Origin: a virus
DNA: 34,442 bases
Strand: one strand, 5' to 3'
Virus record (IMG/VR): IMGVR_UViG_3300017714_005106
Location: 1-34,442 of that record
The notes below the pieces were generated by a model. That model was not told the DNA's origin and made no database searches. It saw only the letters and a program-made list of their open reading frames with translations. This document shows, piece after piece, positions 2,712 through 20,362 of this stretch. The first letter of the stretch is position 1. Each line of letters begins with the position of its first letter. The position numbers and the translations under genes were made by a program.

Positions 2712-2890
2712 GGGCTGGCGATTTAGTAAAGCTATCACTCGAGTTTATATCTGAGAATTTATCGACAGGGCTAGTAACCAAAGTTCTTGTGCCTTATGAA
2801 GAAGTCGAAGTATATTGGAACGAAAGCTTTCCACAGGAAAACGAATACGTGTCTCAATTAGTTGTGGTGCAAAAGGCCACTAAGGCTTGA
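2684..2890 (+). CDS. MKxGD-like small protein (IRAGDLV variant)
   Basis: 68 aa. The family motif lies at residues 9-15 (IRAGDLV), followed by LSTGLVTKVLVPYEEVEVYW and YVSQLVVVQ. ATG at 2684 is preceded by AAAGAGA. Its last 11 nt overlap the end of the minus-strand lipoprotein gene, so the two genes converge with no terminator between them. Confidence 0.7.
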   Translation: MGTEEQQEIRAGDLVKLSLEFISENLSTGLVTKVLVPYEEVEVYWNESFPQENEYVSQLVVVQKATKA

Positions 2891-3839
2891 TTACGTATCC
2901 TGCCTCTACCAAGCTGCCACCGCCAGGTATGATAGAGAATATTATGGAGTTGCTTGGTTCATCGTAGCTCCAATCATGGTTCGGCAGCCCGTCAATAAAC
3001 ACTCTAATCGTATCAGGAATAGGTTTGTGACTTAATTCAAGGTATTCATAAGGCTCTATTTGGGAAGTCGCATCAGCAACCCCTGGAGCCCAATCATCTG
3101 AACATATATCTACCACTGTTCCAAACAAAATGTTTGTTGCGTCAATGTACGCTAGCCCTGCCTGTGACCCTGGTGAGCCAGGGCATAATGAGTCTTGGCT
3201 TTCTTTCATTACTATACTGGCGAGATAAACGTTCCCAAACCTTCGAGGTACGTACCATCCTATAAAGTCATGTGACCCTACAAGAATGTCACTTTGATCA
3301 TCTTCGTCGCTAACGAATACAACCAGCAGCGCTGCATCATGACGCATCCAAGAAGCTGCGTACGGGTTGTGTTCAATATATTCAAAAACAGAGTCAAACC
3401 CTTTTTCGTTTGGACCTGATAGCATCGCTCTGTACATGTCCTCAGCGTCTATTATCGTGTCACCTGGGACCAGAGGAAACTGCTGCTCTATTACAGATTT
3501 GTTAGGGTCAGTCGGAATCATTACTAGCCGCCAACCGCCTAAAGGTAAGGCATTCATCATGTGGTCTATACCTGCGAGCAGGTTGTCTTGATACTGGCTC
3601 ATTGAGCCGCTAGTATCTATAACCCATATAATGTCGACACCATCGACTGCTCTTACTTGGACGAATGAATCAACCCATATTTCCACTTCTTCAGCTGGTG
3701 TACCGGTCGGAATTGGAACCTCAACCTCTATATAGACAGGTACCTCCACCGTCTCTGGGTCTTTATAAACCAGCATGTAGTCGCCTTCGCGGCAGCCACT
3801 AATCAAAACAAAAAATATTAACATGAAAAATTTGAACAT
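2880..3839 (-). CDS. VWA-domain lipoprotein
   Basis: 319 aa on the minus strand. The start at 3839 is chosen because GAGGAG sits 8 nt upstream and the protein then begins with a lipoprotein signal peptide (MFKFFMLIFFVLISGC, lipid Cys at residue 16). A von Willebrand A domain follows: IIWVIDTSGSM gives the DxSGS metal-binding motif (D75, S77, S79), and later LLVVFVSDEDDQSD fits the second acidic site. VWA domains bind Mg or Ca and mediate protein contacts. The protein is predicted to be anchored in the cell envelope. It is one of only two minus-strand genes and is probably acquired cargo acting on the host surface (adhesion, exclusion of other phages, or unknown). Confidence 0.85.
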   Translation of the reverse strand: MFKFFMLIFFVLISGCREGDYMLVYKDPETVEVPVYIEVEVPIPTGTPAEEVEIWVDSFVQVRAVDGVDIIWVIDTSGSMSQYQDNLLAGIDHMMNALPLGGWRLVMIPTDPNKSVIEQQFPLVPGDTIIDAEDMYRAMLSGPNEKGFDSVFEYIEHNPYAASWMRHDAALLVVFVSDEDDQSDILVGSHDFIGWYVPRRFGNVYLASIVMKESQDSLCPGSPGSQAGLAYIDATNILFGTVVDICSDDWAPGVADATSQIEPYEYLELSHKPIPDTIRVFIDGLPNHDWSYDEPSNSIIFSIIPGGGSLVEAGYVIKP

Positions 3840-3980
3840 AAGGAGAACTCCTCTTTTCTTAACTATACTCTCATACCTTAATGACAAAAAAGTTTTTTCA
3901 TATATAATATTGTCTATTTTCCTTTATATTTAAAGACAGGTGGGATAAACAAACGGTCTGTGCCCACTTTAAAACAAAAT

Positions 3981-4028
3981 GAGACTGGCACATTTTTTTG
4001 TTTGTATACAAACGCATTTGCCAGTCTC
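3981..4028. repeat. Nested inverted repeat ahead of the tagged-gene array
   Basis: Two perfect 10-bp arms, GAGACTGGCA (3981-3990) and TGCCAGTCTC (4019-4028), enclose a perfect 14-bp palindrome GTTTGTATACAAAC (4000-4013). It lies 30 nt before the first tagged gene and in the 218-nt gap between divergent transcription units. It could be an operator, a processed RNA hairpin or a terminator. The rest of the gap (3840-3980) is A/T-rich and must hold the start signals of the lipoprotein gene, but I cannot place a convincing promoter. Confidence 0.7.
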
Positions 4029-4057
4029 TTATTAGAAGAATTTAAGGTGAGTGCAGA

Positions 4058-4285
4058 ATGAAAATCACAAAAAATCAATTAAGAAGAATCATTAAAGAAG
4101 AACGTGCTAAGCTTATTAAAGAGGCTAGCTATCGTCACCCAAAAACTGGTGAAAACTTGTTCTTAATGTTAAATGATGTTGTCGATAAGATGTTAGATCA
4201 AGGTATGGATACCGTGGAATTAGCTAATGAGCTACGTGGATTGGCTGATGATGTTGAAGACTCTAAACCCATGATGGAAAGATAA
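4058..4285 (+). CDS. Tagged-family protein 1
   Basis: 75 aa, first gene of the array, with AAGGTGAG ahead of the ATG. The tag MKITKNQLRRIIKEE is followed by RAKLIKEA, giving an IKE|A tripeptide at residues 20-22 that fits the T4 prohead-protease pattern (I/L)xE|A. The body (residues 23-75) is an acidic helical stretch containing LDQGMDTVELANELRGL, a helix-turn-helix hairpin also seen in array members 4, 8, 9 and 10. Capsid targeting is inferred; function unknown. Confidence 0.85.
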   Translation: MKITKNQLRRIIKEERAKLIKEASYRHPKTGENLFLMLNDVVDKMLDQGMDTVELANELRGLADDVEDSKPMMER

Positions 4286-4286
4286 C

Positions 4287-4613
4287 ATGAAAGTCACAAA
4301 AAACCAACTTAGAAGAATCATTCGAGAAGAGAAAGCTAAACTTCAAAAGAAGCAGCTTAAAGAATCTGTTACAGACATGCGACATTACGAAGATATGATT
4401 GAAGACGCAGCCTTTAATATTTCCGAGCAATTCATGTCAGACATGGGTGGTATGTACGAAGAAGAGCCTGGGGCATTTCAACAGTCTGTTCAAGAATGGA
4501 ACAAAGAGACCTTGAAAGCAAGCAGCGACTTGGAACGACGAATATCATTGGCAGTAGCTAAAGCAGTACAAGCGGTTGAGCAAGATCTCCATGATGGACA
4601 ATACTCAAATTAA
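4287..4613 (+). CDS. Tagged-family protein 2
   Basis: 108 aa, 1 nt after the preceding stop. The tag is MKVTKNQLRRIIREE; the (I/L)xE tripeptide comes slightly later than usual (LKE|S at 24-26) after a KKQ insertion. The body is helical and Met/Glu-rich (YEDMIEDAAFNISEQFMSDMGGMYEEE) and ends in a long amphipathic helix (ERRISLAVAKAVQAVEQDL). No known domain recognised. Confidence 0.85.
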   Translation: MKVTKNQLRRIIREEKAKLQKKQLKESVTDMRHYEDMIEDAAFNISEQFMSDMGGMYEEEPGAFQQSVQEWNKETLKASSDLERRISLAVAKAVQAVEQDLHDGQYSN

Positions 4614-4622
4614 GGTAATATA

Positions 4623-4832
4623 ATGAATATCAAAAAAAGCCAAATAATACAAATCATTAAAGAAGTTATGTCCGATGGTGAGGCAATTGGTGCAACCACC
4701 CAGTCTTTAGTTGGAGCTCTTAAACGATGTGGCTTAGGCGCTGAGCGTAGCCCTACCATCGATGATGAAATTTACATCATGACCGGTGAAGCAGAGGGTA
4801 TTACAATTAAAGTACTTAGGAGAGGAAGGTGA
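4623..4832 (+). CDS. Tagged-family protein 3 (most divergent tag)
   Basis: 69 aa. The tag is degenerate (MNIKKSQIIQIIKEV) but keeps the spacing of the hydrophobic residues and the IKE at 12-14. The body differs from its neighbours: ERSPTIDDEIYIMTGEAEGITIKVLRRG looks like beta strands rather than helix. It carries a single Cys. It may be an old member, or a protein with a different role that uses the same targeting signal. Confidence 0.75.
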   Translation: MNIKKSQIIQIIKEVMSDGEAIGATTQSLVGALKRCGLGAERSPTIDDEIYIMTGEAEGITIKVLRRGR

Positions 4833-4837
4833 AGGTA

Positions 4838-5074
4838 ATGAAGGTTACAAAAAACCAGCTTCGAAGAATTATTAAGGAAGAGCGGGCGAAGCTTCAAGAA
4901 CAATCTACTCCGACCGCTGGAATGACCGGAATGGAAATTGAGCCGTCTATAGAAGCGATTGAAGAGATATTGAACGGTTTATATGACGATGGGCTCACGA
5001 ATGCTGATCTCATTCAGTTGCTTGAAGGTATTATCTTGGACATCAACAGAGGCTTCGTAGGAGAACCAACATGA
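4838..5074 (+). CDS. Tagged-family protein 4
   Basis: 78 aa. ATG at 4838 is used rather than the in-frame GTG at 4829 because the tag MKVTKNQLRRIIKEE starts there and an AGGAGAGGAAGG region lies upstream. LQE|Q at residues 19-21 closes the tag. The body contains LYDDGLTNADLIQLLEGI, the helical hairpin shared with members 1, 8, 9 and 10. The end overlaps the next gene by 4 nt (ATGA). Confidence 0.85.
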   Translation: MKVTKNQLRRIIKEERAKLQEQSTPTAGMTGMEIEPSIEAIEEILNGLYDDGLTNADLIQLLEGIILDINRGFVGEPT

Positions 5075-5358
5075 AAATTACAAAAAGACAACTAAGAAGA
5101 ATTATCAAAGAAGAAAAGGCTCGTGTACTTTTAGAGCAAGCTGGCAATAATGAAGCATTGATTTTAGTAGATGCTATTCAATATGCAGTTTATGATTCTC
5201 TTGATGAAGAAATGGGGATTAAACCTGAAGAGCTTGAGGCCGTAAAAGAATCCTTACTGTCAAAGCAGGCTGAAATTTCAGAAGCAATTAACATTGCTTT
5301 TGAAGACTACTCAAGAAAACTCGCCATGTCCGGCGGTAATGCAAAACCAGTAAGGTAA
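5071..5358 (+). CDS. Tagged-family protein 5
   Basis: 95 aa, coupled by ATGA to the gene before. Tag MKITKRQLRRIIKEE with LLE|Q at residues 20-22. The body is helical and acidic (ALILVDAIQYAVYDSLDEEMG, LEAVKESLLSKQAEISEAINIAFEDY) with a basic, Gly-containing end (GGNAKPVR). No known domain recognised. Confidence 0.85.
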   Translation: MKITKRQLRRIIKEEKARVLLEQAGNNEALILVDAIQYAVYDSLDEEMGIKPEELEAVKESLLSKQAEISEAINIAFEDYSRKLAMSGGNAKPVR

Positions 5359-5370
5359 AGGTAGCATAAG

Positions 5371-5688
5371 ATGAAAATCACAAAACAACAACTTAAGAAA
5401 ATTATTAAAGAAGAAAAGCAAAAGCTTATTGTTGAAATGAACCCAATAGCAAATGCTGAGCGCACATTAAGCATGTACGCCGACGTTTCTAACGTCGATA
5501 CCTTGACAACCGCAATACAGGACATTCTGGCGGGTGTTGAGATGGCTGCTATCGATGACGGTCTTGAAGAAGATGAAGCTGAGGAAATGGCCGCTGATGC
5601 CGCGTTACTTGCTGTCGCTCAGGCTTTCCAAGCTACAGGTTTGATTGCTGAATACGACGCAATATACAAAATGATACAAAGAGGGTAA
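5371..5688 (+). CDS. Tagged-family protein 6
   Basis: 105 aa. Tag MKITKQQLKKIIKEE with IVE|M at residues 20-22. The body is unusually Ala/Glu/Asp-rich (AAIDDGLEEDEAEEMAADAALLAVAQAF), so a basic head is joined to a strongly acidic helical body. The start is 12 nt after the previous stop, with AAGGTAG ahead of it. Confidence 0.85.
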   Translation: MKITKQQLKKIIKEEKQKLIVEMNPIANAERTLSMYADVSNVDTLTTAIQDILAGVEMAAIDDGLEEDEAEEMAADAALLAVAQAFQATGLIAEYDAIYKMIQRG

Positions 5689-5694
5689 GACGTA

Positions 5695-5958
5695 ATGAAA
5701 ATCACTAAACGCCAGCTCATAAGAATTATTAAAGAAGAGAAGTCCCGAATTCTTAAAGAGCAACAAATGATTTCTGACCCAGAGGTTATGGAGATGCTTG
5801 AGGACGGCTTAGCAATGATCGCACTTGATATGATTATGAACCGCGGTAATGAAGCGCTAAAAAGCGAAGTCATGCAGTACGTAATGGATACCAGTACGAA
5901 TGACCCAGAAAGAGTTGAGGCCGCGATGCAAACGCTGGCTCGCAAACATAACTTATAA
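5695..5958 (+). CDS. Tagged-family protein 7
   Basis: 87 aa. Tag MKITKRQLIRIIKEE with LKE|Q at residues 20-22. The body is Met-rich and helical (VMEMLEDGLAMIALDMIMNRG, then EALKSEVMQYVMD, then ERVEAAMQTLARKHNL). Start 6 nt after the previous stop, with GAGGGTAAG upstream. No known domain recognised. Confidence 0.85.
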   Translation: MKITKRQLIRIIKEEKSRILKEQQMISDPEVMEMLEDGLAMIALDMIMNRGNEALKSEVMQYVMDTSTNDPERVEAAMQTLARKHNL

Positions 5959-5966
5959 GGACTATA

Positions 5967-6167
5967 ATGAAAATCACGAAAACCCAACTTCGAAGAATCA
6001 TCAAAGAAGAGAAGTCCAAAGTTCTGGCTGAGCAATCATTACTAGACTTAGATGATTATAAAATGCTTGAAGATACAGTTTTGGGAGCTATTGAAAATCT
6101 TGTAAGAAGTGGCTATACGAGAGAAGATGCAGTACAAGCCCTACAGACGATTGCGATGGATGCATAG
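5967..6167 (+). CDS. Tagged-family protein 8
   Basis: 66 aa, the shortest member: almost only the tag (MKITKTQLRRIIKEE, LAE|Q at 20-22) plus one helical hairpin (LGAIENLVRSGYTREDAVQALQTI). It shows the shared hairpin in its minimal form. AAGGACTATA precedes the ATG. It overlaps the next gene by 1 nt (TAG/GTG). Confidence 0.85.
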   Translation: MKITKTQLRRIIKEEKSKVLAEQSLLDLDDYKMLEDTVLGAIENLVRSGYTREDAVQALQTIAMDA

Positions 6168-6415
6168 TGAAAATCACAAAACGACAACTCAGAAGAATTA
6201 TTAAAGAAGAGAAGGCCAAGCTCCTTAAAGAGCAAGATATGCCAACTTCAATGATCGTAACAATGGTCGAAGAAGCCGATCTAGAGTCTGTTTACGATAT
6301 CGTGGCCGAAAATAATCTCAGCGATGGTATGGAGGTACCTGCTGAAATTGTTCATGCGATCGCTGACGGTCTTAGAAAAGCTGCTAACACGTTTACTAAA
6401 GAACAGGGGCTATAA
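6167..6415 (+). CDS. Tagged-family protein 9
   Basis: 82 aa, GTG start overlapping the preceding TAG by 1 nt; the start is fixed by the tag itself, translated MKITKRQLRRIIKEE. LKE|Q lies at residues 20-22. The body carries NNLSDGMEVPAEIVHAIADGL, a variant of the shared hairpin, and a basic-helical end. Coupled to both neighbours. Confidence 0.85.
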   Translation: MKITKRQLRRIIKEEKAKLLKEQDMPTSMIVTMVEEADLESVYDIVAENNLSDGMEVPAEIVHAIADGLRKAANTFTKEQGL

Positions 6416-6654
6416 TGAAAATCACAAAAAGACAACTCAGAAGAATAATCAAAGAAGAGAAAGCTAAAATTCAGGAGCAGTCTAGATTCGGGCTTAGTCA
6501 AGAAGATGAAAAAGTAATGACTGCGCTCATTCTAGATTTCTCTAATAAGTTTTCCGCCCTTATGGGAAAGATGTTGGCCGACGGGATGAGTCCTGAGGAC
6601 GTTGAAGAAGCAATATCCATCGCGCGCAACGATAACAATCTGGACATGCAGTAA
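6415..6654 (+). CDS. Tagged-family protein 10
   Basis: 79 aa, TAATG overlap of 1 nt. Tag MKITKRQLRRIIKEE with IQE|Q at residues 19-21. The body has two helices: EDEKVMTALILDFSNKFSAL and LADGMSPEDVEEAISIARND. The second is the shared hairpin with a clear DG(M)S-turn. The tag DNA is nearly identical to that of the two following genes. Confidence 0.85.
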   Translation: MKITKRQLRRIIKEEKAKIQEQSRFGLSQEDEKVMTALILDFSNKFSALMGKMLADGMSPEDVEEAISIARNDNNLDMQ

Positions 6655-6965
6655 TGAAAATCACAAAAAGACAACTCAGAAGAATCATTAAAGAAGAACT
6701 TCTTAGAGAAGCAGCTGATCCTAAGGTTGATGAAGTTGCAGCCGTAGTACAGGCCGCGGTCGACTCCGGTTCATCTGCTATTATGGACATGGCTGGCAAG
6801 CTTCAAGCAGCTGGCCACAATGCTGAGTACTTGAGTGGCGCGGGCATGAGAATGGTTCAAATTCCCCATGGCAGAGGAAACATAGTCGTCATATCAAAGA
6901 ACGCAGTTGAGCCTGACGGAGATACAGTTATCGTTGGACCTTATGCTATAGGAGTAATGGGATGA
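6654..6965 (+). CDS. Tagged-family protein 11
   Basis: 103 aa, TAATG overlap. The tag MKITKRQLRRIIKEE runs directly into LLREAADP, placing LRE|A at residues 17-19, a canonical prohead-protease pattern. After a helical stretch (DEVAAVVQAAVDSGSSAIMDMAGKL) the body turns to strands (RMVQIPHGRGNIVVISKNAV, DTVIVGPYAIGVMG), so this member probably has a small alpha/beta fold unlike its helical neighbours. Confidence 0.85.
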   Translation: MKITKRQLRRIIKEELLREAADPKVDEVAAVVQAAVDSGSSAIMDMAGKLQAAGHNAEYLSGAGMRMVQIPHGRGNIVVISKNAVEPDGDTVIVGPYAIGVMG

Positions 6966-7264
6966 AAATCACAAAGAGACAACTCAGAAGAATCATTAAA
7001 GAAGAGAAGGCTAATATCCTTAAAGAGCAAGGACCTCAATTTGATAGTGAGGTCGGAGCTGAGGTTATGGCAGGACTCAAGGCAGACGGTTCTTTTAAAG
7101 CGATTCAAGCTTTAGCAACTCAAGCAGTAAAAACGCTAGAGGACGGTACCGAACATTTAGATATGCCTCTTATGGATGCTGGACTTAATGAACTAGCAAT
7201 GGACATTAGAAAAGCAGTTGAACTGTTAGATAAAATTAGAAGCGCAGCATACGACTTAAGATAA
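6962..7264 (+). CDS. Tagged-family protein 12
   Basis: 100 aa, ATGA overlap with the preceding stop. Tag MKITKRQLRRIIKEE, then LKE|Q at residues 20-22. The body is helical (KAIQALATQAVKTLEDGTEHL, GLNELAMDIRKAVELLDKIRSAAYDL), compatible with a helical bundle or coiled coil. No known domain recognised. Confidence 0.85.
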   Translation: MKITKRQLRRIIKEEKANILKEQGPQFDSEVGAEVMAGLKADGSFKAIQALATQAVKTLEDGTEHLDMPLMDAGLNELAMDIRKAVELLDKIRSAAYDLR

Positions 7265-7274
7265 GGGCAAAATA

Positions 7275-7772
7275 ATGAAGATTACCAGAAGCCAGCTTAG
7301 GCGAATCATTAAAGAGGCAGTATCTGGATCAGAGCCACAAGCGCTATATGATCGATTAAAAGAATTAGAGGGTGAATATAGTTCTCATTTCTACCTTTTA
7401 GATCGATTAGGCGAAGAGGTCTATTCAGACGCAATGAATCTTTTGCAGGATATGCACCAAGAAGACAAAAGCTATAACAACTATGGTAACTTTTTAGCAA
7501 TTGTAAGGAAAAAACCTTACGGTATTCAGCCTTCCAGTGCTCATAAGCTTTGGTTTGGCCCTAGTGGTCGAGGTGGTCCACTGGTGATAAAGCTGCAAGA
7601 TATGTCACAAGAAGTAAAAGAGTATAAAGATCTAAAAGGTCAATTTAAGTCTGTTAATGCCACAAGCCAGTCAGATGCTGTGTATGGTCGAAAGAGAACG
7701 AATATAATTCATGAACCAACAGGCACTGTAATAAATAGCTCAACCGACCGTAAAGGCAGCTTAGGAACATAA
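7275..7772 (+). CDS. Tagged-family protein 13
   Basis: 165 aa. The tag is short: MKITRSQLRRIIKE followed at once by AVSGSEP, giving IKE|A at residues 12-14. The body is larger and less helical than most, with a coiled segment (ALYDRLKELEGEYSSHF) and a C-terminal half rich in Gly, Ser, Lys and Tyr (GIQPSSAHKLWFGPSGRGG, DAVYGRKRTNIIHEPTGT). It may have an individual activity, but no catalytic motif stands out. Confidence 0.8.
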   Translation: MKITRSQLRRIIKEAVSGSEPQALYDRLKELEGEYSSHFYLLDRLGEEVYSDAMNLLQDMHQEDKSYNNYGNFLAIVRKKPYGIQPSSAHKLWFGPSGRGGPLVIKLQDMSQEVKEYKDLKGQFKSVNATSQSDAVYGRKRTNIIHEPTGTVINSSTDRKGSLGT

Positions 7773-7773
7773 A

Positions 7774-8085
7774 ATGAAGATCACAAGAAAACATCTCCGA
7801 AGCATTATTAAAGAATCTCTTAAAGAAGCCGGTGGTTACCGTGAGTACGGCGAAGATGAAATGGTGAGAGATTCAAGAGCCGGCTCCATGGGCGAAACCC
7901 AACCAATGAAGGTTGACCCCAAAGAGATTCAACAAACGGTTGCTGACATAGCGAACGAACCAGTTTTTAGAAATGCAAAAGCTGAAGACATAGCCGAAGC
8001 CGCGATGGATCAACTTGGTGATCTGAGTGATGAGGCTTACAACATCGCGTGGGGAATAGCAAAAGACATGGGGTTTCCAGCATGA
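7774..8085 (+). CDS. Tagged-family protein 14
   Basis: 103 aa. Tag MKITRKHLRSIIKES with two candidate sites, IKE|S (12-14) and LKE|A (16-18). A Gly/Asp-rich linker (GGYREYGEDEMVRDSRAGSMGE) leads to a helical C-terminal part (AEDIAEAAMDQLGDLSDEAYNIAWGIAKDMG). ATGA overlap with the next gene. Confidence 0.85.
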   Translation: MKITRKHLRSIIKESLKEAGGYREYGEDEMVRDSRAGSMGETQPMKVDPKEIQQTVADIANEPVFRNAKAEDIAEAAMDQLGDLSDEAYNIAWGIAKDMGFPA

Positions 8086-8582
8086 AGATCACAAGAAAAC
8101 AACTCCGAAGCATTATCAAAGAAGCAATGGACGTTGTCAACGTGGAAACTGGTGAAGTTTTGACATTCGGCGATGCCGAAAGAGATGTGGCACCTGATGC
8201 TGCTGTTCCTGATCTGGTCAAGCGTCTCGGTCTGAGCATGAGTCCAAATGGTACACTCTCAAATGCAGACTTTGATAAGTTAGAGCAAGAGACGCTTGGT
8301 AAGCAGGATAGAAGATACAACAAGAAGATTTTTGCAAAAAGCGAAGCAGACCGCGAACGACTTGATATCGATAGACTGCTTCAAAGACTCAGGTATTGGG
8401 CCGAGGACACTTTCAAAGACTACGCGGCTGATAATCCAGACTCTGAACTGCAGGATATCGCTTACGATCTCGCTGATGCCTGGGAATATGAATTTGAGGC
8501 TGATGAACGAGAAGAGCTGATGTGGCATTTTGATGGTAGCCTTAACGATCTTAAGGTTTACGCTGCGGAAAGCATGGGGTGA
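8082..8582 (+). CDS. Tagged-family protein 15
   Basis: 166 aa. ATG at 8082 is fixed by the tag MKITRKQLRSIIKEA and by the ATGA overlap. IKE|A lies at residues 12-14. The body has a beta-like start (VVNVETGEVLTFGD) and then acidic helices (DRLLQRLRYWAEDTFKDYAAD, ELQDIAYDLADAWEYEFEADEREELMWHFDG). No known domain recognised. Confidence 0.85.
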   Translation: MKITRKQLRSIIKEAMDVVNVETGEVLTFGDAERDVAPDAAVPDLVKRLGLSMSPNGTLSNADFDKLEQETLGKQDRRYNKKIFAKSEADRERLDIDRLLQRLRYWAEDTFKDYAADNPDSELQDIAYDLADAWEYEFEADEREELMWHFDGSLNDLKVYAAESMG

Positions 8583-8586
8583 TAAA

Positions 8587-9840
8587 ATGATGATCCAAGG
8601 TGGACAAGGTCCATTACCAAAAAGAATATTCGAGGCAGACTACGTAACAGGAGTTTTAGGGATTGATCTCCCGCTTAATGAGTCGTACCCGTATTCTCCA
8701 GCTATGCAAGAAAGAATTATAGAGGAGCAACTTGTTCTTGAAGGGTTCTTTAGCGATTTTAAAAAGCTAGGTGGCGATACAAAGAATGCAGCATTAACCT
8801 TACGATATATCATGGGTGATTCTAAAAGACTTGAACAGTACGCTGGGATCGTAAAGAAGTCCATGAAAGAATTTTATGAAAACGTTGTTGAGTTTCTTGA
8901 AGGCGTAATCGAAGGCATCACTGGGCTACCTGATCAAATCACTGATAAGATTGCAAAAATTCTAGAGTGGGCGAAAAAGCTTGTCGAGAAGGTAAAGAAG
9001 CTTGCAAAGGCTGCATTAGGAATGTCCGGCTGGAAAGGCGCTATGCTAGTGTCTGGTGCACTGGTCGGAATTGGATTTGTGTGGTCTCAGGTTAAAGATG
9101 TGGCGCCTGATATAATGGACGGCTTAGCTAAGGTTAAGGAATTCGTTGCAGATAAAATAGGTAAATTAAAAAAGGAGTCTGTTGAGATGCTTACAAAGGT
9201 AAGCCTTCTCGAAGCTAGCAATGTTCTTGATCTGATTATAGAGCAAGAAGAAAGTATGCTAAAGAAAGCAGCAGACAAAGTTAAAGAAGTCATGCAGCCT
9301 CTACTGGCTAAAGCAAAAGAAATGGGTGTTGATGCTCTTAAAGGATTAGCAGTTGAAGCTTTAACTGGCGCATTAACCGGTGGAATTGCATCAGCGTTCC
9401 AAGCTTTACAAAAAGTCTTTGGCGGCGCAAAGCTAGTGTTTGAGTTTCTTGGTGGTCCACTAAAGAAATTTGTAGCAATGATGAAGGGTGATGTTGATCC
9501 GAAAGAAGAGGCTGCTGAAGCTGCTTCTGGAGAAGATGACCCAACAGAAAAAAATGAGAGTGTTAATATGGAAATGAATGAAAAGAAGCTTAGAGAGCTA
9601 ATTAGAGAAGCACTAAAGGAAAACTACAACTCAATGTCTCCAGCTGGAAAAAGCTTGGCACAAAGAGCAAAGAGAATGTTCTCTAAAGACTATCCAGGCG
9701 TTAAAGTAGGTATTAACACTCGTGAGGGCTGGATTACAGTTAATGGAAAGAAAGCAGTCAATATGTCACAAGCATCAGGAAGTCCTATGCAGGTTGAAGA
9801 CGTTATTGATAAAATGAAGCAATCACACTTAGGTCGCTAA
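8587..9840 (+). CDS. Large untagged array protein with amphipathic helices and an internal tag-like segment
   Basis: 417 aa, ATG at 8587 after GGGGTGATAAA. It has no N-terminal tag but starts with PLPKRIFEA, giving IFE|A at residues 14-16. Other (I/L)xE tripeptides are LLE|A (207-209), IIE|Q (217-219) and IRE|A (339-341). A long Lys-rich amphipathic region (120-145) is followed by a hydrophobic stretch (GAMLVSGALVGIGFVW, 151-166) and a second Ala/Gly-rich one (261-274). An acidic linker leads to MNEKKLRELIREALKEN (330-346), similar to the tag helix, and a small basic C-terminal domain. It may be an internal head or DNA-ejection protein able to touch membranes (inference). Alternatives are a tail or scaffold component. 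Confidence 0.7.
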   Translation: MMIQGGQGPLPKRIFEADYVTGVLGIDLPLNESYPYSPAMQERIIEEQLVLEGFFSDFKKLGGDTKNAALTLRYIMGDSKRLEQYAGIVKKSMKEFYENVVEFLEGVIEGITGLPDQITDKIAKILEWAKKLVEKVKKLAKAALGMSGWKGAMLVSGALVGIGFVWSQVKDVAPDIMDGLAKVKEFVADKIGKLKKESVEMLTKVSLLEASNVLDLIIEQEESMLKKAADKVKEVMQPLLAKAKEMGVDALKGLAVEALTGALTGGIASAFQALQKVFGGAKLVFEFLGGPLKKFVAMMKGDVDPKEEAAEAASGEDDPTEKNESVNMEMNEKKLRELIREALKENYNSMSPAGKSLAQRAKRMFSKDYPGVKVGINTREGWITVNGKKAVNMSQASGSPMQVEDVIDKMKQSHLGR

Positions 9841-9859
9841 AAAAGGAAAAGGTACCAAA

Positions 9860-10330
9860 ATGAAGATCACTAAAAGACAATTGATGCAAATCATCGCAGA
9901 AGAAAAGAGCAAGATCAACGAAGAAACCGTTGGTGTTGAAGACGCATCACAGACAGCTGATGCTTTCGGTGGTGGTGAGGTTGAAGAAGAAGTATTCGTC
10001 GATGGAGATGAAGACACTTTGTTAAACCAAAATGAAAACCCAGGGGCACCACCCGCTGTAATGACAGTCGCTGAAAAAAGAGATAGGCTTAAGTCTAGAC
10101 TTCGCAAGATTGTAAAAGAGCAAGCCGGCGAAGGTGGCGGACTTCCTAACCCAACTGACTTGGCTAAAAAGCTGTCTTCTGCTGGGGCAGAAGCGACTAT
10201 GGACTTCTTGTCAGATTTAATGAACAGAGTTTCTTTCGGAGCTGCGGATCAGCCAGAAGAGACTGTTGAAGAGCCAGTTCTTCCTCCAGAGCTTCCTCCT
10301 GTTGATGACGTTCCACCTGAGGGTATGTAA
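9860..10330 (+). CDS. Tagged-family protein 16 with a second internal tag-like helix
   Basis: 156 aa, with AAAAAGGAAAAGG upstream. Tag MKITKRQLMQIIAEE with INE|E at residues 19-21. After an acidic region (GGGEVEEEVFVDGDEDTLL) comes a second basic helix, KRDRLKSRLRKIVKEQ (73-88), that mimics the tag. The end is Pro/Glu-rich (PVLPPELPPVDDVPPEGM). The layout suggests fusion of two cassettes. Confidence 0.8.
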   Translation: MKITKRQLMQIIAEEKSKINEETVGVEDASQTADAFGGGEVEEEVFVDGDEDTLLNQNENPGAPPAVMTVAEKRDRLKSRLRKIVKEQAGEGGGLPNPTDLAKKLSSAGAEATMDFLSDLMNRVSFGAADQPEETVEEPVLPPELPPVDDVPPEGM

Positions 10331-10710
10331 TGAAAATATCAGAGAGCAACGTTAGAAAAATAGTCAGGGAAGAGTTGCTCCGATTAATGGAGCAAGAAGA
10401 GCCAAAAGCAAAAAAGCTTGATGATCTTGAATTTAAGTCCAGCGAAAGATCTGCTTACGAACAATGGGCATCAAGTAATGGTCATATATCTCCAGAAGTA
10501 CAGTCAGTGTTGGTTAGTTATCTGATCGACCAAGGACTTGAAAAGCATCATGACCTGCATGATAAGCTCGCGAAAGAGCTAGGGTTTTCTCATGATAATA
10601 TTATGGCTGCATTAGAGAACAGACTTCCAAAAGAGGAAGATGAAGAGACTAAGCAGTCAAGTAAAATACTTGATCTGGAAAGAGTAGTAGAAGAAATCTC
10701 CAAACTTTAG
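10330..10710 (+). CDS. Tagged-family protein 17, last of the array
   Basis: 126 aa, TAATG overlap with the preceding gene. The tag is degenerate (MKISESNVRKIVREE) but ends in LME|Q at residues 19-21. The body is helical, with HHDLHDKLAKELGFSHDNIMAALENRL, and the C-terminal helix is acidic. No clear terminator follows; 10711-10786 holds a TATAAT at 10731-10736 without a convincing -35 and a small CTGG/CCAG hairpin. Confidence 0.8.
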   Translation: MKISESNVRKIVREELLRLMEQEEPKAKKLDDLEFKSSERSAYEQWASSNGHISPEVQSVLVSYLIDQGLEKHHDLHDKLAKELGFSHDNIMAALENRLPKEEDEETKQSSKILDLERVVEEISKL

Positions 10711-18316: not shown

Positions 18317-20362
18317 TTGCGAACTTTAACGATCATAGTTTTTTTGCTTCTCACAGGCTGCAGCGATACTGTTGATGTCGTTGCAGACGCGTCTTCTCCG
18401 TCTATAATATCCATAGACGCGGCTACCTTTCCTGATACACAAATAATAGATATCATTACTCCAGATGCGTATGTTGATCCGTGTATCAATATATCCAGTG
18501 GTGATGAACTATTTTGTGAGTGTAAGCCAGAATGTTGTCAAACGCAAATGTGGTATTGCCCACCCAGTGGGTTAGGAATAACCGCTGCTGAAATCACAAT
18601 GAATATTTGTGATGATAACCTCGAGGTCTGCGATCGCTCTATAGACATGACATGCCCTCCGAATGAAGTGTTGTCTAGAAGCAGTTGTAATACAGTTTTG
18701 GAATGCCCTCCCGGAATAGACAATAGAATAACAATAACCGTTCAGTGTGAAATAGAGGGAGTGCAAGGGCAGCAAGAAATACTTTGCACAAAGGGTAACA
18801 TAACATACGGCGAATGTGTTATCTGTGAACCAAGAGAAGAAAGATGTAATTATCAAGATGATGATTGTGATGGGATTATAGATGAACAACAAAGAAACGT
18901 TTGTGGTACATGTGGACCAGTGCAATCTGAGATTTGTGACAACGTCGATAATGACTGCAATGGATCTGTAGACGAAGACTTGATAAGAGAGTGTAATACA
19001 GCATGTGAAAGAGGACTTGAGGTTTGTCAAGCTGGTAACTGGATATCATGTACAGCAAGACAACCTGCAGAAGAATCTTGCGATGGAGCAGATAACGATT
19101 GCGATGGCAGAGTTGATGAAGAACTTGAGTGTTTATGCAACGAAGAAGACGTAGGCGTTCTAGTCCCATGTGCAGAGCCGCCACTTTTATGCGGTCAAGG
19201 GTTTAAGACATGTGAATGTGCTGACCAAGACTGTTTAGAGTATGTCATGACTCCTTGTACAGCATTGTGTAATTACATTCCTCAACCGCCTGATCAAGAA
19301 TGCAACGTCAATGTTGGTATATTGGTGCAGCGTGAAGAGTGTAACAACTTCGACGAAGATTGTGATCAGCTGATAGATGAAAATCTCATACAAGAATGCT
19401 ATACAGGAGATCCCGACCTTTTATTTACAGGAGTTTGTTCTCCTGGCGAAGCAATATGTCAAAATGGGTCGTGGGGAAATGAATTAAATGGCGCTTTTCA
19501 AATTGGTATATGTCTAAATGAAGTTTTACCAAGCCCTGAAATTTGTGATGGATCTGATAATGACTGTGATGGCGAGGTTGACTATGGGAATAGCATTAGA
19601 GACACAGACGTCCTTTTTGTTTTAGACTGGTCTGGATCAATGGACGAAGAAATAGAAGCTGTAAGGATAGCATTGGCTCGTTTTGCGCAGCAGTTCGCTG
19701 CTGAAGAAGTGCTACAATGGGGGTTGATAATAGGTCCTAAAGAAGACACACGACCGTCAATACAAAATTTAATAAAAGTCGTAGACATATCACCCTTTAA
19801 TCAATTTCTTGATGGGTTTGCAGCCTTAGGTAACGAAGGGATGGATACCGGTTCTGAGATGTTAAAAGATGCGATTTATCTCTCTATAGATAACATCACC
19901 GCAAACAGAACTGTAGATGTTAGAGCTTCAGAGTGGACGGAAAATATTAACTCGATACCAGAAAAAGAGAGGTTTTCTATATCCTGGAGAGATAATGCTC
20001 ACCGTATCGTCATTGTATTTTCTGATGAAAACCCGCAATCATTTTTAAGGCCACCGATCACAGATGATAAATTGGTAGAGGCGCTAAGAGGTACTGTTGA
20101 TTTTAAGTTATACGCTTTTGTGCCGATAGACAGAGATGGCGATCAATGGATAGATATTATTTTAGCTGGTAAGGGAGGCAGGTTTGAGCTAACATCAAAT
20201 CCCGTGAGCATGTACAATAATTTAATGTCTATAATCGATGATGCTTGTTTACCAGATCAAGCACCTGACGAAGAGCAAGCCAAGATGTGTCTTCCGAAAA
20301 ATGATCTGCTTTTAAATCTAAGACCGAAGTTTATGCCGGCAACTTTGAACACTTCTAGATAA
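18317..20362 (+). CDS. Lipoprotein with MopE-type Asp/Cys repeats and a C-terminal VWA domain
   Basis: 681 aa, TTG start; no upstream ATG lies in frame. Signal peptide with lipobox LLTGC (Cys15). Residues 55-340 are Cys-rich. Five repeats of CDxxDNDCDGxxDE type lie at 177-190, 207-220, 255-268, 342-355 and 410-423; this motif occurs in MopE-like surface proteins and is thought to bind Ca or Cu. The VWA domain (about 428-650) starts DVLFVLDWSGSMDEE, with MIDAS D437, S439 and S441. Such architectures are common in Myxococcota-type bacteria. It should be displayed on the cell envelope and is very unusual for a phage. A role in adhesion, receptor masking or superinfection exclusion is speculative. 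Confidence 0.92.
   Translation: MRTLTIIVFLLLTGCSDTVDVVADASSPSIISIDAATFPDTQIIDIITPDAYVDPCINISSGDELFCECKPECCQTQMWYCPPSGLGITAAEITMNICDDNLEVCDRSIDMTCPPNEVLSRSSCNTVLECPPGIDNRITITVQCEIEGVQGQQEILCTKGNITYGECVICEPREERCNYQDDDCDGIIDEQQRNVCGTCGPVQSEICDNVDNDCNGSVDEDLIRECNTACERGLEVCQAGNWISCTARQPAEESCDGADNDCDGRVDEELECLCNEEDVGVLVPCAEPPLLCGQGFKTCECADQDCLEYVMTPCTALCNYIPQPPDQECNVNVGILVQREECNNFDEDCDQLIDENLIQECYTGDPDLLFTGVCSPGEAICQNGSWGNELNGAFQIGICLNEVLPSPEICDGSDNDCDGEVDYGNSIRDTDVLFVLDWSGSMDEEIEAVRIALARFAQQFAAEEVLQWGLIIGPKEDTRPSIQNLIKVVDISPFNQFLDGFAALGNEGMDTGSEMLKDAIYLSIDNITANRTVDVRASEWTENINSIPEKERFSISWRDNAHRIVIVFSDENPQSFLRPPITDDKLVEALRGTVDFKLYAFVPIDRDGDQWIDIILAGKGGRFELTSNPVSMYNNLMSIIDDACLPDQAPDEEQAKMCLPKNDLLLNLRPKFMPATLNTSR

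Follow-up and report, generated by a model that had tools for sequence, protein, structure and literature searches.

A tagged gene array in an uncultured virus as a probable T4-type cargo-loading locus

The tagged array, its bodies and its leader

We analysed IMG/VR virus record IMGVR_UViG_3300017714_005106 over its full 34,442 nucleotides (nt), hereafter the window, which carries an array of small genes whose products share one N-terminal sequence (the tag) joined to differing bodies (Table 1); other sequences are given by our own handles (G022, L105 and so on). Seventeen consecutive open reading frames (ORFs) on the + strand at 4058-10710 open with the common tag MKITKxQLRxIIKEE. They are 66-166 amino acids (aa) long and are spaced by -4 to +19 nt. 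Such a same-strand array had been proposed in a first-pass annotation made from the letters of the sequence, and the ORF coordinates, gaps and lengths all bear it out. The tag is clear in 15 of the 17 ORFs and divergent in ORF 3 (MNIKKSQIIQIIKEV) and ORF 17 (MKISESNVRKIVREE). The tag helix is basic and amphipathic, spans ~15-22 residues and has a net charge of +1 to +7, and the bodies behind it are negative in 16 of 17 cases. With a 24-residue tag profile, E-values reached 1e-10 to 1e-13 per genome; the similarity of the tags among the ORFs is far beyond chance.

Table 1. Coordinates of the array, its leader and its internal tags in the window. Sites give the motif, the residue number of its E and, after the arrow, the next residue.
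Feature	Position	Strand	Details
Two-hairpin leader	3939..4031	+	93 nt; P1 GTGGG/CCCAC, invariant GTCTGNGCCCACNNTAAAANAAAATG, P2 ATGAGACTGGCA/TGCCAGTCTC
Tagged ORF 1	4058..4285	+	75 aa; site IKE22↓A; ortholog G022 142931, 82%
Tagged ORF 2	4287..4613	+	108 aa; site LKE26↓S; body family n=9
Tagged ORF 3	4623..4832	+	69 aa; divergent tag
Tagged ORF 4	4838..5074	+	78 aa; site LQE21↓Q; G022 ortholog
Tagged ORF 5	5071..5358	+	95 aa; site LLE22↓Q
Tagged ORF 6	5371..5688	+	105 aa; site IVE22↓M; G022 ortholog, 65%
Tagged ORF 7	5695..5958	+	87 aa; site LKE22↓Q; orphan body
Tagged ORF 8	5967..6167	+	66 aa; site LAE22↓Q
Tagged ORF 9	6167..6415	+	82 aa; GTG start; site LKE22↓Q
Tagged ORF 10	6415..6654	+	79 aa; site IQE21↓Q; orphan body
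Tagged ORF 11	6654..6965	+	103 aa; site LRE19↓A; G006 ortholog, 54%
Tagged ORF 12	6962..7264	+	100 aa; site LKE22↓Q; G022 ortholog, 64%
Tagged ORF 13	7275..7772	+	165 aa; site IKE14↓A; orphan body, sole basic one
Tagged ORF 14	7774..8085	+	103 aa; sites IKE14↓S, LKE18↓A; orphan body
Tagged ORF 15	8082..8582	+	166 aa; site IKE14↓A; body family n=6; orthologs G022, G006, 58%
417-aa ORF	8587..9840	+	no N-terminal tag; helix-rich, tape-measure-like composition (weak PHROG match)
Internal tag in 417-aa ORF	9574..9621	+	MNEKKLRELIREALKE; precedes C-terminal domain
Tagged ORF 16	9860..10330	+	156 aa; site INE21↓E; G022 ortholog, 57%
Second tag-like helix in Tagged ORF 16	10088-10120	+	LKSRLRKIVKE
Tagged ORF 17	10330..10710	+	126 aa; divergent tag; site LME21↓Q; ortholog G022 150150, 61%

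The bodies had been described as differing behind the shared tag, and by BLAST those of the window are indeed unrelated to one another, while 13 of the 17 have a relative in another phage. Together, the window and the listed IMG/VR loci hold at least 406 unique tagged ORFs, whose bodies form 268 clusters, 206 of them singletons, among the matches listed. Pfam and PHROG scans of the tagged ORFs of the window returned nothing significant. Among tagged bodies in other phages, a GNAT acetyltransferase scores above the Pfam cut-off and an EF-hand-like protein below it. In a model of ORF 15, the C-terminal half is helical and predicted with confidence, and the tag helix is of low confidence and detached from it; fold searches with two models, this one included, found no credible match. 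The annotation had named, as the outcome that would tell against a delivery signal, a tag lying inside one folded domain with conserved bodies. We looked for this arrangement and found instead the many body clusters and the detached helix.

The shared start might alternatively mark a recombination hot spot or a duplicated segment that spreads genes and has no role in the protein. Tag codons are identical in 807 of 1350 same-residue pairs, against 555 expected from codon usage, and neighbouring tags agree at up to 43 of 45 nt. However, the protein sequence of the tag is kept across distant phages, occurs internally as well and is evidently constrained at the level of residues, which argues against this explanation; we regard it as extremely improbable. 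Tags are also more alike within contigs than with shuffled labels (0.583 vs 0.537; maximum 0.552 of 500), as would be expected if each phage had a partner of its own that its tags must fit, or if tags were spread by recombination.

The 417-aa protein encoded among the tagged genes had been taken as untagged. This holds for its N-terminus but not for its interior, where a tag precedes the C-terminal domain. That domain is a free-standing tagged ORF in L105 (MKITKRQLRKLIESYNSMSPAG...), and the homolog of the whole protein in record G022, which also sits amid tagged genes, has a tag of the other class (below) at the corresponding place. Tag and domain therefore travel as one unit. Up to four tags occur in a single ORF (L112:3696-4952). 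A direct scan with the 417-aa ORF found no relative, and a comparison with isolated phages gave one insignificant match.

In G022, a second co-oriented array at 102.2-108.3 kb (L140:2201-8344) consists of ORFs that start M(x)LLREYI(R/K)E(L/I)LxE. The bodies in this G022 array match GNAT, HAD-type hydrolase and metallopeptidase families weakly or in part. Tags of the second class number 8-13 per record in 8 of 19 records. The T4 internal proteins (IPs) IPII and IPIII start MKTYQEFIAE↓A (read from AF158101), which resembles LLREYIRE; we call this a resemblance and claim no homology.

Just 5' of the first tagged gene lies a leader with two hairpins, whose arms we paired by hand in six sequences. 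The closing pair of stem P1 is G-T, G-C, A-T or C-G (G014 has one mismatch), and stem P2 shows compensatory changes (A-T to G-C, C-G to T-A and T-A to C-G). In a pattern search, the leader was found in six independent phages, always shortly before a tagged array: the window, G022 with its near-identical relatives, G014, L105, L112 and L263. The copies outside the window are at L142:954-1042 (G022), L080:228-309 (-), L105:9217-9306 (-), L112:1438-1522 and L263 ~3546-3636 (-); in L263, a small cysteine-rich ORF separates the leader from the first tagged ORF. An IMG/VR-wide scan with the invariant leader core returned seven stretches, all of them heading tagged arrays. No Rfam family matched the leader above the curated cut-offs, and T4-type late promoters (TATAAATA) are not enriched. 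Our plain guess is that the leader is a control element of the array transcript. Alongside the tag itself, two other elements are new, namely the second tag class, which has an array to itself, and the leader found in front of the arrays in six independent phages.

Directly preceding the leader, the window encodes at 2880-3887 (-) a secreted-looking protein of 335 aa, and at 18317-20362 (+) another of 681 aa. Both have DxSGS motifs like those of von Willebrand A domains, and both have relatives in G022 and G006.

The phages that carry the tag

A degenerate DNA pattern for the tag matched at least 118 IMG/VR stretches. In 84,980 prokaryote genomes (257 Gb), the same pattern matched five stretches, every one in contigs of metagenome-assembled genomes (MAGs). 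The tag is thus phage-specific and widespread. One tagged sequence, L179 (contig PBIO01000025.1; 101,404 bp, as is viral record L052), is binned in a Halobacteriovorax MAG, a possible hint of a host. A tblastn search of isolated phages with the bare tag gave no match, probably because of the low-complexity filter, and was replaced by the profile search. The profile found 5-41 tags per record in 19 long records, 11 matches in the 484-kb uncultured phage LR756508 and one in Flavobacterium phage immuto; it found none in T4, Mel-JY01, RM378 or P-HM1. A search of one paper library found no description of the tag.

Among 32 tagged records, a T4-type prohead protease gp21 (PF03420) is present in 19 and a T4-type capsid protein gp23 (PF07068) in 18. 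Both are present in all 18 tagged records of at least 140 kb (including G008, 142.7 kb; G015, a 102-kb record that also matches, was set aside from this count), and the tagged records without gp21 or gp23 are all shorter than 140 kb. A protease of the S78 type was sought as well and occurs in 0 of the 32. The window is largely collinear with one of these 18 records, G022, at 139-177 kb, mostly at 45-80% identity. Because G022 carries homologs of gp20, gp21 and gp23, we assign the window to the T4-type phages. The site of the array differs between the two: in the window it lies between the genes at 3887 and 10787, and in G022 it lies at 141.0-144.7 kb, where only the ortholog of the ORF starting at 10330 lies apart, at 150.1 kb.

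The head core and cleavage-type sites

Small proteins with a tag-like N-terminus have their genes between gp21 and gp22/gp23, and every one of the 19 records with gp21 encodes such a protein behind this gene. In one lineage the N-terminus reads MAK(M/I)(S/T)(R/K)xxLKxLVKECLxEILxE(A/G), a form that a profile found at 75 of 80 gp21 loci, and is followed by a second small protein with a similar start, LTPALLKKLVxEEKxxxxE; in the other lineage it reads MKKSELKNIIKECVKEVIFEEG or a near variant. PHROGs hold no family for these proteins. In T4, gp67 and gp68 adjoin gp21, and from their gene position we take the tag-like proteins to be putative head core proteins.

We built a profile of this core N-terminus from ten gp21-adjacent proteins and searched it against 1853 six-frame ORFs of G022, G006 and the window. 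The two true proteins ranked first, followed by 36 tagged ORFs and only then by untagged ones; taken collectively, this ranking is unlikely to arise by chance. In the reverse search, the array-tag profile recovered the gp21-adjacent proteins with E-values down to 3.1e-5. The first-pass annotation had suggested looking for tagged proteins next to head genes; fully tagged ORFs lie directly beside gp21 in five records (G013, G017, G025, G026 and G031). The protein at the gp22 position of G022 has a net charge of -55, and with tags of +1 to +7 the charges would suit docking on an acidic core.

Two further features of the head clusters were noted. A bS21 (RpsU)-like small protein is apparently encoded inside the head clusters of several records (e.g. 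L154:3198-3479), as in Microcystis phage Mel-JY01, where the head-cluster protein is annotated RpsU (L172:5110-5337). In G002 and G003 (L155:5611-9466, L156:5770-9651), gp23-type capsid genes form a tandem pair, possibly for shell and vertex proteins.

T4 gp21 cleaves after L/I-X-E, and the T4 internal proteins have N-terminal targeting propeptides of 10-19 residues (PMC9026906). We therefore looked at the tag/body border, using one ORF per body cluster (n=260). An [LI]xE motif with its E (the P1 residue) at residue 17-27 is present in 162 of 260 bodies, against 38 +/- 5.6 in shuffles, while body windows of equal size have it in 24-33 of 260. A site at residue 14 is nearly universal, though partly built into the search pattern. 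One association is not imposed by that pattern: the second site is present in 145 of 203 tags with E at residue 15, against 11 of 40 with A, S or G there (p=3.3e-7); A, S or G at residue 15 would suit cutting at 14. Every one of the 17 window ORFs has at least one [LI]xE site, with border positions at residue 14-26.

The first-pass annotation had read the shared head as a signal delivering cargo to one place in the virion or infected cell. The tag on gp21-adjacent proteins, the border sites and the T4-type phages support a delivery signal and narrow the place to the prohead. With good confidence, we read the array as the cargo-loading locus of a T4-type phage and the tag as a capsid-targeting sequence (CTS) that puts the bodies into the prohead. 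Basic amphipathic helices can also bind membranes or acidic partners, and the tag could be a localisation helix for some site in the infected cell (a membrane, or a host or phage machine) unconnected to the head. This would leave unexplained why the same motif starts the gp21-adjacent proteins of the head cluster and why cleavage-type sites lie at the border, and we consider it highly improbable.

For cargo loading, we infer a chain of core binding, cleavage, virion presence, injection and a role in anti-defence or take-over. During head assembly, the tag helix would dock each protein on the prohead core, whose foundation is the strongly acidic scaffold protein from the gp22 position. Cleavage after [LI]xE by the gp21-type protease, at the tag or immediately behind it, would then release the body within the head, and the freed body could be ejected into the next host, where it might counter defences or help in take-over. 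On the best reading, up to ~40 proteins per genome would be loaded in this way and lose their tag to gp21. With bodies freely exchanged behind the tag, the phage would keep a virion cargo that is both large and changeable.

The main doubt concerns the role of the bodies, as cargo for delivery or as core parts that can be discarded. Tagged proteins might serve as prohead core (scaffold) parts in assembly or head-size control, be mostly degraded by gp21 and deliver nothing. The tag is common to the gp21-adjacent proteins, where T4 has its core proteins gp67 and gp68; most bodies are acidic, the single modelled body is helical, and T4 core proteins are cut to fragments (PMC9026906). Against this, the ~40 tags of some genomes, the rapid turnover of bodies and the orphan bodies are unlike structural parts, and some bodies are enzyme-like. 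The [LI]xE sites moreover cluster at the border, and windows in the body have them at about the level of the shuffles. We judge the core-part explanation unlikely.

Several observations weigh against cargo loading by a capsid-targeting tag. The window itself has no head gene, none of the cultured phages checked has more than one tag match, and among records picked by gp21 alone only 8 of 17 have tagged ORFs, whereby the tag is common yet not universal in the gp21 group. The matches of the core profile to tagged ORFs are short and individually weak (best E 0.0013), and an amphipathic helix alone would likewise raise the L..E spacing. The tag is not the T4 CTS (MKTYQEFIAE vs MKITKxQLRxIIKEE here) and is absent from T4. 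Finally, T4 internal proteins are described as basic (PMC9026906), whereas 16 of the 17 mature window bodies are acidic.

Comparison with known systems

T4 has only a few internal proteins, most of them without known function. In the tagged phages, the particle probably takes up unrelated bodies behind one tag as cargo, and in far greater number. Provided this reading of the tag holds, the tag would mark out, by sequence, the head cargo of a large group of uncultured phages (up to ~40 proteins per genome), and hundreds of ORFs so far without annotation would become candidates for injected effectors or anti-defence proteins. It would also be a second natural tag with which foreign proteins could be directed into heads, and the leader would point to dedicated control of cargo expression. 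A more ambitious picture, which we put forward tentatively and think rather less likely to be right than wrong, is that environmental T4-type phages have a modular loading system in which two classes of tag (MKITKxQLRxIIKEE and MxLLREYIRELLxE) serve dozens of interchangeable cargos, the products of fused multi-tag ORFs are separated by cleavage in the prohead and the conserved leader controls expression of the arrays.

Phage P1 DarB has an N-terminal capsid-targeting sequence, of which 30 residues suffice to direct a reporter into the head (PMC9024508). P1 is, however, a phage of another type, with no array of small tagged genes and no consensus found among the Dar proteins (PMC9024508). In phiKZ and SPN3US, inner head proteins that act as ejection proteins have N-terminal propeptides cut by the prohead protease (PMC5694885), but the propeptides are mostly long, the phages belong to another group and the phiKZ motif is S/A-X-E (PMC9026906). 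With [LI]xE at residue 14-26 as the border motif, the tagged proteins are not ejection proteins of the phiKZ type.

The closest likeness is to IPI, IPII, IPIII and Alt of T4, in which the CTS is a short N-terminal propeptide on unrelated small proteins, with L/I-X-E at the propeptide end, T4-type head genes and highly variable bodies (PMC9026906, PMC3012670). The tagged proteins do not belong to the sequence families IPI-III, as T4 gave no tag-profile match and the window bodies have no significant Pfam or PHROG match. They do share three features of the CTS-type class: one short N-terminal sequence on unrelated proteins (17 in the window; at least 406 ORFs in 268 clusters among the matches listed), L/I-X-E at the propeptide end (17/17 in the window; 162/260 bodies) and T4-type gp21 and capsid genes, which are present in relatives and reach the window fragment only by collinearity with G022. 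They differ from T4 in their number, with long co-oriented arrays that bring the tagged ORFs of a genome to as many as ~40, in the internal tags of fused ORFs and in the conserved leader before the array. Most likely, the array operates in the manner of the T4 capsid-targeting system, but at a larger scale and through a tag that looks unrelated.

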